The position numbers and the translations under genes are program-made. The notes beneath the pieces were generated by a model. That model did no database searches, was not told the DNA's origin, and was given only the letters and a program-made list of their open reading frames with translations. From Catenovulum agarivorans DS-2 (GTDB lineage Bacteria > Pseudomonadota > Gammaproteobacteria > Enterobacterales > Alteromonadaceae), in contig NZ_ARZY01000008.1 of the NCBI RefSeq assembly GCF_000568405.1, positions 1-64,000 on the forward strand: DNA of 64,000 bases, written 5' to 3'. Below, piece by piece: positions 7,116-61,783 of the stretch; the first letter of the stretch is position 1, and each line of letters opens with the position of its first letter.

Positions 7116-7147
7116 AAAAAAATCCCGCTAAGAAAATCTTAGCGGGA
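7116..7147 (-). terminator. Terminator of small RNA copy 1
   Basis: TCCCGCTAAGA, a short loop and TCTTAGCGGGA form a perfect 11-bp stem. The seven As at 7116-7122 give a T run on the minus strand only; the other side has no T run, so it terminates minus-strand transcription. Confidence 0.85.
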
Positions 7148-7178
7148 CACAAGGGAGATACAACAGGAGCACATTTTC
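7116..7178 (-). ncRNA. Candidate small RNA, copy 1 of a two-member family
   Basis: On the minus strand a promoter-like region leads into a segment containing TCCTGTTGTATCTCCCTTGT (7168-7149) and then an 11-bp GC-rich hairpin with a 7-T tail. The same 20 bases, the same spacing to a terminator and a related upstream region recur on the plus strand at 37.6 kb. No open reading frame accounts for it, and the neighbours ssb and the CHRD gene have their own terminators. The transcript is estimated at about 63 nt from a -10-like TATATT/ATTTAT at 7193-7185. The pyrimidine-rich UCUCCCU could pair with Shine-Dalgarno sequences (inference). Confidence 0.7.
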
Positions 7179-7183
7179 AAACA

Positions 7184-7219
7184 CATAAATATAGAGTGCT
7201 AAATAGTTAGTTAGTTCAA
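7184..7219 (-). promoter_or_regulatory. Promoter region of small RNA copy 1
   Basis: TTGAACTAA at 7219-7211, then TCTAT and a -10-like TATATT/ATTTAT at 7193-7185. The same elements at nearly the same spacing precede the second copy at 37609-37643, which is the main evidence. The spacing between TTGAAC and the -10 exceeds 17 bases, so TTGAAC may be an activator site and not a -35 box. Confidence 0.5.
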
Positions 7220-8703: not shown

Positions 8704-9297
8704 ATGACAACAGAAATAACCGCTCGTCAGTTTGGTATTGATGATGCAGGGGCGATGGATTTAAATGAATTTGAGCATGCTGTGATATCCGCGGCATTGT
8801 CTTTATTAGATAAGCTTCCCGCCGAAGATATTACCATTCGCAAACTAAGCCAAGCGCTTAATTGTGCACCTTCGACCTTGTTGGCTCGCTATAAAAATTA
8901 TCAAAACTGTTGGCAATTTGTCGCCCAAAAACTGTTTGATTATTGGTTTGAGAACAAGATGGTTTGGTTAGATAGTCTAGATGCTGTATTAGAGCGACTG
9001 TTTGCGTTTAGCCAGCATCAGCCCTATGTGTGGCGCTTGTTGTTCGACTTTGCGCCAGATCAGCAAGCGCACTTAATTGACCATTCACATCGCCGTCAAC
9101 AACAGTTGGTCAGTTTAATACAAAAATTTATCCAACAGCCAGAACAAGGGATGACAGCCTACTATTGTTTATTTGCTTTTTGTCATTTGCAAGCTCGTGG
9201 TAGGCTAGTGGAAAGTATCGATGGTGTTGCGCAACAAAGTATACTGCGGCAACAATTGATGCAAATGACCCAACAAGATAATAAGGACACAGAGTGA
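8704..9297 (+). CDS. TetR-like transcriptional regulator
   Basis: A 197-residue protein. Residues 20-70 resemble the TetR-type helix-turn-helix (EDITIRKLSQALNCAPSTLLARYKNYQNCWQFV); the C-terminal helical part is unlike any family I can name. I start it at the ATG at 8704, because the upstream in-frame ATG at 8665 adds an unlikely hydrophobic stretch. Its stop codon overlaps the GTG start of the next MFS gene (GTGA), so the regulator, exporter and DUF2937 gene form an operon and it may regulate the exporter. Family call is moderate; the ligand is unknown. Confidence 0.65.
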   Translation: MTTEITARQFGIDDAGAMDLNEFEHAVISAALSLLDKLPAEDITIRKLSQALNCAPSTLLARYKNYQNCWQFVAQKLFDYWFENKMVWLDSLDAVLERLFAFSQHQPYVWRLLFDFAPDQQAHLIDHSHRRQQQLVSLIQKFIQQPEQGMTAYYCLFAFCHLQARGRLVESIDGVAQQSILRQQLMQMTQQDNKDTE

Positions 9298-37608: not shown

Positions 37609-37643
37609 TTGAACTAAGATGAAGTAGCGCAGTCTATTATAAT
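37609..37643 (+). promoter_or_regulatory. Promoter region of small RNA copy 2
   Basis: TTGAACTAA at 37609-37617 and a perfect TATAAT at 37638-37643 precede the small RNA. The same arrangement (TTGAACTAA, TCTAT, -10-like box) precedes copy 1. The spacing between TTGAAC and TATAAT is longer than for a standard -35, so an activator may be needed. Confidence 0.55.
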
Positions 37644-37649
37644 GAATTT

Positions 37650-37715
37650 AAAGTGTGTTCCTGTTGTATCTCCCTTGTATGCCGCCTTTAGTTAAGCTGT
37701 AGGCGGCTTTTTTTT
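37650..37715 (+). ncRNA. Candidate small RNA, copy 2 of a two-member family
   Basis: The 20 bases TCCTGTTGTATCTCCCTTGT (37659-37678) are identical to those of copy 1 on the opposite strand 30 kb away. They are followed by a GC-rich hairpin and an 8-T tail. The estimated transcript is about 66 nt, starting about 7 bases after the TATAAT. The terminator hairpins of the two copies have different sequences while the single-stranded 5-prime part is conserved, a common pattern for a trans-acting small RNA. Target unknown; UCUCCCU could pair with purine-rich ribosome sites. Confidence 0.72.
37681..37715 (+). terminator. Terminator of small RNA copy 2
   Basis: GCCGCCT and AGGCGGC pair over 7 bp, with an inner AG/CT pairing, followed by eight Ts. 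The other strand lacks a T run, so it serves plus-strand transcription. Confidence 0.88.
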
Positions 37716-60534: not shown

Positions 60535-60841
60535 TTGGTTCCCTCTGAGTTATAGAACTGCGCTTTTAATGTGGGGCCGCAAAAGCATAATTCAAGTTGT
60601 AATGAACTTTTTTGGTGCAAATTGCTGGCCAAGATACAGGTAGAGTTATTTTATACGTCATTTGACGTATATCTCTGCGCAGTTTGACGAATACCCCCTC
60701 TAGCGCTTTCGCGTAATACTAACCACAGTCGTAAATAAGGCAGCACTCATAAGCCAATTTCCCATTTGTGATGGCTGTTTTGTTTACGACCCCAAACACT
60801 GCAAATTACAAGGTTAAGCAAATTACATCAGGGGTAACACA
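60535..60841. other. Intergenic region between the two-component operon and the porin
   Basis: The 307 bases hold the palindrome described separately and a TGGTGCA half site at 60613-60619, with an imperfect left half (TGAACTT). No sigma-54 promoter with GG-N10-GC was found for the porin. Confidence 0.55.
60652..60671. promoter_or_regulatory. Candidate operator upstream of porin-urtA
   Basis: TATACGTCATTTGACGTATA is a perfect 20-base palindrome apart from the central TT. A partial copy TTTGACGA follows at 60683-60690, and a related sequence lies before the permease-kinase gene at 42039-42052. LuxR-type regulators bind such dyads. It is 170 bases upstream of the porin start. Confidence 0.55.
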
Positions 60842-61783
60842 ATGCGAAAATTCAAACGTACAGCTTTAAGTATCGCAGCAGCGCTAGCAACAGTAACGGC
60901 ATCACCAGCGGTTAACGCTAGCGATTTTAGTTTAACAGACAGCTTATCAGTAACTGGTTTTATTGATATGTCTTATGTATACACAGATGCAGATGGCGCA
61001 AGCTCAACCTCTACTTCTGGTTTAGACCAATTTGAGATTGATTTGTTATATAGCTTTGATGACAAATTAAATGCGCAAGTTGACTTAGAGTACAAAGATA
61101 GCAAAGGGGCAGTTGCACTTGAGCAAGCCTTTTTCACTTACGCGGTTACCGACGAATTCACCTTTAAAGCTGGTCGCTTTTTAAGCTACTCAGGTTGGGA
61201 AACTGAAGAACCAACCGGTTTATTCCAATACTCAGGTACTGGCTATGCTAAACACTTTTATGGCTACTACCAACAAGGTATCTCAGGTTTATATAGCACT
61301 GATGGTTTTGCTGCTGCACTTTCAATAATCAACAGCCCATACAGCCCAACAGACACTAACTCAGAAAAGCCTGGTTACGAAGCTATGGTGGCTGTAATGC
61401 CAACAGACGCTATTACAGTGAAAGCTTTCTACTTAGCAGACGGTGATACAAATACAACCAACGTTTGGGGTTCTTACTCTGCTGGCGACTTAACTTTAGC
61501 TGCTGAATATAACCTTGGTGATTACGAAGATGGCAGCGATGGTTCTGGTTATTTATTTATGGCGAACTATGCCATGGGCTCTGCTGGTATCACAGTTCGT
61601 TACCACGATTATGAAGTTGAAAATGCTGATGGTTCAACTAAAGACGACGGCAGCGCAATTACTATCTCTCCTAGCTACGCAGTAAGCGATAACTTACTTA
61701 TGGTATTCGAATACCGTATGGATGAAAGTGATGTGAACGGCGACAGCGATACCATCGCACTTGAAGCTCTAGTCTCTTTCTAA
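60842..61783 (+). CDS. Porin upstream of the urea transporter
   Basis: A 313-residue outer-membrane protein with signal peptide 1-26 (ASPAVNA) and about sixteen strands (SVTGFIDMSYVYTDADG, FEIDLLYSFDDKLNAQVDLEYKDSK, terminal DSDTIALEALVSF ending in Phe). It belongs to a group of porins found next to urtA in other Gram-negatives and may pass urea or amides. AGGGG precedes the ATG. It lies 30 bases before urtA, likely the same operon. Confidence 0.82.
   Translation: MRKFKRTALSIAAALATVTASPAVNASDFSLTDSLSVTGFIDMSYVYTDADGASSTSTSGLDQFEIDLLYSFDDKLNAQVDLEYKDSKGAVALEQAFFTYAVTDEFTFKAGRFLSYSGWETEEPTGLFQYSGTGYAKHFYGYYQQGISGLYSTDGFAAALSIINSPYSPTDTNSEKPGYEAMVAVMPTDAITVKAFYLADGDTNTTNVWGSYSAGDLTLAAEYNLGDYEDGSDGSGYLFMANYAMGSAGITVRYHDYEVENADGSTKDDGSAITISPSYAVSDNLLMVFEYRMDESDVNGDSDTIALEALVSF

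Follow-up and report, generated by a model that had tools for sequence, protein, structure and literature searches.

The window, a stretch of 64,000 nucleotides of Catenovulum agarivorans DS-2, raises the question of whether the gap between an exporter gene and a LuxR-type regulator gene holds one of two copies of a small RNA (sRNA) gene and, if so, what would drive the transcription of such an RNA and on what it would act. The original prediction described a 20-base core, duplicated on opposite strands. This 20-mer, TCCTGTTGTATCTCCCTTGT, is present at both sites without a mismatch (Table 1), and a search allowing up to 3 mismatches found only these 2 matches in the window, against a mean of 0.00 in 100 shuffles. 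In the whole genome there is no further copy at up to 2 mismatches and one third match at 3 mismatches (L003 1501-1520), the opposite strand of which covers the Shine-Dalgarno sequence and ATG of a chemotaxis-receptor-like gene, as judged by eye. Copy 2 lies, as proposed, in the intergenic region between a DMT exporter gene (EamA) and the gene of a response regulator with a LuxR-type domain, while the neighbours of copy 1 are ssb and a gene with a CHRD domain. A convergent gene stands at the 3' end of each window copy. The covariance model R1, which was built from 12 copies, matches the whole of copy 2 (E 4.7e-21 for the genome) and nucleotides 7116-7183 in copy 1 (E 9.1e-18), both copies being themselves members of the model.

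Table 1. Features of the window, numbered from its first nucleotide, and related loci outside it.
Feature	Location	Strand	Remarks
Putative sRNA, copy 1	7116..7184	-	Inferred 69 nt; R1 match plus inferred start
Core, copy 1	7149..7168	-	Identical to copy 2; partly inside a weak predicted stem
Putative sigma-E type promoter, copy 1	7191..7217	-	GAACT-N17-TCTAT
Putative sigma-E type promoter, copy 2	37611..37637	+	GAACT 37611-37615, 17-nt gap, TCTAT 37633-37637
Putative sRNA, copy 2	37644..37715	+	Inferred 72 nt; R1 match
Core, copy 2	37659..37678	+	Predicted unpaired
Intrinsic terminator, copy 2	37681..37715	+	Hairpin from ~37681, followed by eight Ts at 37708-37715
Porin_4 gene, candidate target	60818..61780	+	Pfam PF13609; ribosome-binding region gives the third strongest copy-2 duplex among 55 window start regions
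Diverged third locus (L268, L312)	G000 C1:261707-261806		E 8e-4; GAACA-N17-TCTGA; AATGTGCTCTTGTT; without UCUCCC
Tandem array (L046)	G005:C4:189086-190125		Six copies
Tandem array (L131)	G066:C18:58160-58883		Five copies
Tandem array (L245)	G382:C16		Three copies and a weaker fourth

The core was found at up to 2 mismatches in this genome (G000) and in 6 of its 7 congeners in the genus Catenovulum/Gayadomonas; none of the 52 genomes searched beyond these contained it. R1 also finds the seventh congener (G005), in which six copies stand in tandem at a spacing of ~194 bp, and gives a total of 28 matches across the genus (8 genomes, E 0.01). The genus counts of promoter, frames and seed given below use 24 of these. 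The four excluded matches are G000 C4:18728, G004 C3:236614, G002 C7:553890 and G003 C1:3587112; three are without a promoter element and the one of G003 has GAACA. At G000:C4:18728-18797 (L045), as well as in G004 (L050), a core-like stretch and a terminator are located directly 3' of the stop codon of a TonB-receptor gene, with no sigma-E-type promoter in the 60 nt read; this stretch may be a 3'UTR-derived RNA or may be due to chance. A search with a short pattern of the core returned 22 matches, 10 of which fall on contigs of G001-G004 and G006, within the genus or an Alteromonadaceae bin; the remaining 12 are in unrelated bacteria and may be chance occurrences, the pattern being so short.

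At least one homolog of the genes flanking copy 1 (ssb, the CHRD gene or the gene at 9285) is found at that locus in 7 of 7 congeners, and the LuxR-type gene at the copy-2 locus is retained in G004, G003 and G002. The presence of multiple and tandem copies could also be explained by a dispersed mobile element instead of a functional RNA gene, a reading that is hardly tenable because the copies are few, they occupy loci with flanking genes kept between species, and only outside the preserved promoter, core and terminator does the sequence diverge. A phage origin was considered and rejected: a single match of 32 bp to an Alteromonas phage, with an E value of 0.1, was taken as chance. Viral contigs scanned with the window core, and with a CCTTG-variant pattern that does not fit the window copies, gave 0 matches each.

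The original prediction had placed the promoter at a TATAAT box and had listed TTGAACTAA and TCTAT as bases shared by both copies. The shared bases were confirmed; TATAAT, which is found at 37638-37643 in copy 2, is missing from copy 1 and does not hold as a conserved promoter box. The shared bases belong to an element with GAACT and TCTAT separated by 17 nucleotides. A whole-genome search for GAACTW-N16-TCTAT identified exactly 3 sites, located before rpoE, copy 1 and copy 2; the reversed control pattern has 7 sites in the genome, and it is therefore the identity of the three sites that carries weight, not their count. In each of the 8 genomes of the genus, GAACTTTTT..GTCTAT stands before rpoE, and the gap is the same. 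A like element precedes rpoE of G062 and G078, and a scripted search before rpoE of G080 did not find a sigma-E-type element. GAACT-N16-18-TCTW is found at most 110 nt upstream of 23 of the 24 genus copies, those with longer leaders included, for a chance expectation of 0.0017 per 122-nt stretch that was derived from a background including both window copies. The 24th copy has GAACC with a 17-nt gap (by eye). R1, with which the genus copies were gathered, was built without the promoter. The Salmonella sigma-E consensus is GGAACTTTT / GTCAAA (excerpt of PMC1804206), and the promoter of E. coli rybB reads GAACT-N17-TCTTA. That the promoter of both copies is of the sigma-E (RpoE) type is well supported by these comparisons, and a promoter of the type found before rpoE makes TATAAT unlikely to be the -10 box. 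A housekeeping sigma-70 sRNA, transcribed from TATAAT and carrying UCUCCCU as an anti-Shine-Dalgarno seed, would agree with the box in copy 2 and with the presence of UCUCCC in 19 of the 24 genus copies, but we consider it very improbable because TATAAT occurs in 2/24 copies versus 23/24 for GAACT-N16-18-TCTW; this count goes against the promoter part of that reading and leaves its seed part untouched. Placed at the distance from the promoter of what we take to be the RybB 5' end in E. coli, the start site would be a G in both copies.

A hairpin followed by a T-run terminates both copies, with different sequences in each, so that the position of the terminator is kept and its sequence is not, exactly as had been noted from the window, and the eight Ts proposed for copy 2 are present. 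In the alignment of the terminators, 90% of the cells are paired and the covariation score is 0.369 versus 0.128, neither value being reached in 500 shuffles, with the structure drawn from the same sequences that were used in the covariation count. Double-sided changes are found in 3 of the 8 pairs of the helix (16 cells versus 5.8 in shuffles, 0/500), 4 of the 8 are invariant, and the remaining one is open in 8 of the 12 rows. Of the five summary measures, two were unexceptional, namely the number of double-change pairs (equalled in 235 of 500 shuffles) and of further pair types (88 of 500). The terminators of both copies, as read from the sequence, are well supported.

Short frames exist in single copies, such as one of 17 codons in copy 2, as would be expected of a small peptide gene or a leader-peptide attenuator. 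However, the frames across the core are open with a start codon in 16, 13 and 12 of the 24 genus copies and none is open in all 24, and the convergent gene at the end of both window copies leaves nothing downstream to attenuate; there is next to no chance that either of these readings is correct. The conservation in the genus, the covarying terminator, the kept promoter and the absence of an ORF common to all copies uphold the proposal of a duplicated, terminator-ended gene for a putative trans-acting sRNA.

A second covariance model, R2, includes the promoter and the RNA; it favours the promoter by construction, and its matches consequently weigh less than those of R1. R2 matches 31 of 295 genomes of the family at E <=1e-4, in 12 of 52 genera, and GAACT/C-N16-18-TC is found in all 39 of the outside-genus R2 loci read. 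Genome G066 has nine copies (five in tandem, two, and two), there are three each in G169, G206 and G146 (genus g7) and four in G262, and G382, which belongs to another family, carries three tandem copies and a weaker fourth. Leaving aside this weaker fourth, every array unit read has its own promoter and terminator. The claim of two copies therefore stands as regards the twin core, but not as regards their number, considering the diverged third locus of this genome and the arrays in its relatives (Table 1). The third locus is flanked by a gene matching the GGDEF gene of the window and by a TetR-type gene (by eye), and its G003 counterpart (L051) has matching neighbours. At the level of the order, R2 has matches at 1e-3 in 23 of 394 genomes, of which 15 belong to other families; the cores of these matches are diverged, some have another -10, and they are only possible homologs. 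The outside-genus R1 matches are mixed: of the 9 read, 4 show a sigma-E promoter on inspection by eye (G078, G062 and two loci of G080), 5 are without one (G067, G160, G194, G144 and G008), and several matches cover the terminator part only. Loci L243, L247, L249 and L254 of genus g39 include a terminator-ended RNA with a GAACT -35, a GACTAA or GACAAA -10 and a core of CTTCTT or CTTCCTT, which possibly represents a separate sRNA family.

In G062, G078 and at one G169 locus the sRNA gene is situated, by eye, between polA and the gene of a YihA/EngB-type GTPase. Spot 42 is found within 1 kb at three order-level loci (L258, L259, L261); at gathering score it had no match in L056, L063 and L136, which are polA-engB loci by eye. 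A tentative reading, to which we give somewhat less than an even chance, is that Alteromonadaceae have one expandable multicopy RNA family as the noncoding branch of their envelope stress response, with copies that would move from the polA-engB site, beside or replacing Spot 42, amplify, and diversify their seeds. Changes in copy number would then drive the evolution of dosage and target set, perhaps in step with the large repertoire of TonB receptors; this genome has 55 matches to the Plug domain.

The mostly unpaired 5' half of the sRNA (GUGUUCCUGUUGUAUCUCCC) would be the pairing region, in which GUGUUCCUGUU and UCUCCC are separable candidate seed parts. UCUCCCU had been suggested as the seed, and UCUCCC is indeed kept in most genus copies, as mentioned above, with 5 of the 6 G005 copies lacking it; 6 of the 39 loci outside the genus have the motif, and the third locus lacks it. 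A 5' part of the GUGUGUU/AUGUGUU type is present in 19 of the 24 genus copies, the five that lack it belonging to G001, G006 and G007, and UGUGUUU or GUGUGUU, which occurs in 23 of the 39 outside loci, prevails there. Either part may be the seed.

Pairing was evaluated with positions -32 to +12 of an outer-membrane set (56 genes: 55 for TonB receptors, 1 for a porin) and of a background of 130 other genes taken from the window and from five stretches of 20 kb each. The background retained its envelope genes, among them the porin of the window, and genes of OmpA type did not enter the test set. An uncontrolled difference between the sets is that their start codons were assigned under separate rules. 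For copy 2 the mean duplex energy was -14.0 with the outer-membrane genes versus -12.4 with the others (p 0.009), the longest run gave p 0.0009, and 0 of 100 shuffled sRNAs reached the energy difference. Copy 1 gave a weaker signal: p was 0.10 for the energy and 0.02 for the run, with 0 of 200 shuffles. Reversed-sequence controls gave p 0.048 for copy 1 and p 0.27 for copy 2, the anti-Shine-Dalgarno strength was equal in both sets, and E. coli RybB showed no outer-membrane preference (p 0.98). The outer-membrane leaders are A-richer than the background, which favours a U-rich RNA. An earlier comparison, limited to 30 TonB receptors, had not reached significance by rank (p 0.32; 8 of 300 shuffles). 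Among individual sites, the main porin (C22) offers 10 contiguous pairs, one of them G-U, over AGGA, a run that a shuffled sRNA reaches in 56 of 2000 cases, and TonB receptor L160 offers 14 pairs, three of them G-U. Pairing at the main-porin site is good in G000, G004 and G002, moderate in G003 and G006, and weak in G005, G001 and G007, and across the 8 genus genomes the site has no preference for its cognate sRNA; a single porin site serving as target in all 8 is not supported. Nor is OmpA supported as a target throughout the genus; the OmpA-type leader of G000 pairs poorly (-10.0). A search for 13-mer complements led to no convincing target at a start site among the 11 non-sRNA loci read, one match being without a locus.

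As a class, the results suggest pairing of the predicted sRNA with outer-membrane mRNAs. The main targets of a sigma-E-driven sRNA could also be of another kind, such as the mRNAs of chemotaxis proteins, lipoproteins or regulators; MicL mainly targets lpp. The outer-membrane signal is weak, some other genes pair equally well, and the extra 3-mismatch core match is complementary to the start region of the chemotaxis-receptor-like gene. We nevertheless regard such targets as unlikely, as outer-membrane start regions are somewhat enriched and known RpoE sRNAs mostly act on outer-membrane proteins (excerpts of PMC7602753 and PMC11005410).

We propose, as the likely function, an RpoE-dependent, trans-acting sRNA of 69-72 nt that would, like MicA, RybB, VrrA and MicV, damp the synthesis of outer-membrane proteins under envelope stress. 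Misfolded outer-membrane proteins would free RpoE from its anti-sigma factor, and RNA polymerase carrying RpoE would transcribe both copies up to the intrinsic terminator of each, where the U-tail could also bind Hfq. The family is probably Hfq-assisted; hfq is present in the genome (E 1.9e-28). The 5' half would pair over the Shine-Dalgarno region of TonB-dependent receptor and porin mRNAs, block their translation and promote their decay, and the envelope load would fall for as long as RpoE is active, with extra copies raising the dosage. If this is true, marine bacteria with many TonB receptors have a distinct, multicopy and fast-changing sRNA family; its natural gradation, from one copy up to arrays of six, would let sRNA dosage and seed drift be related to the load of outer-membrane proteins.

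Much is known about the RpoE-dependent sRNAs of enteric bacteria and Vibrio. Three traits of this class are seen here at the level of sequence: a sigma-E promoter immediately upstream, a short intergenic RNA with a Rho-independent terminator, and hfq in the genome. No Rfam family was matched by the sRNA at gathering score in the window or in 20 loci of the family, VrrA, which is presumably present in the Rfam library, included; this agrees with the earlier remark that the core belongs to no named family. No published report of the family was found in the literature searched, of which subscription papers were partially covered. Most likely this is a new RNA family of a known functional kind, which Rfam would gain as a missing family. 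The rybB locus of E. coli (RybB, RF00110) obtains 15.3 bits with R2 (E 0.15). MicA (RF00078) and the Neisseria sigma-E sRNA nse_sRNA (RF02270) are of the same class by name, with chance-level scores of 14.3 bits versus a gathering score of 41 and 17.7 bits versus 75. The sibling sRNAs Qrr, AbcR and OmrA/B differ from the proposed RpoE sRNA in their regulators and targets. They likewise exist in more than one closely related copy (excerpt of PMC4211561). RybB of Escherichia coli and Salmonella has the same GAACT-N17-TCTTA-type promoter directly before an intergenic RNA of ~80 nt with a terminator (excerpt of PMC1804206); unlike it, the window RNA has no match to RybB at gathering score and at least 2 copies per genome. 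Fusobacterium nucleatum, of another phylum, also has two RpoE-dependent sRNAs, FoxI and FoxJ, with C-rich seeds, which repress the porin gene fomA (excerpt of PMC11005410), a likeness drawn by description only. VrrA of Vibrio cholerae represses ompA and, at 140 nt (excerpt of PMC2628432), is longer than the window sRNA. Together with MicV, which was compared by description only, it forms a pair of RpoE-dependent sRNAs with shared seed and targets in one genome (excerpt of PMC7602753), as is proposed here for the window twins in having two RpoE-type sRNAs per genome.
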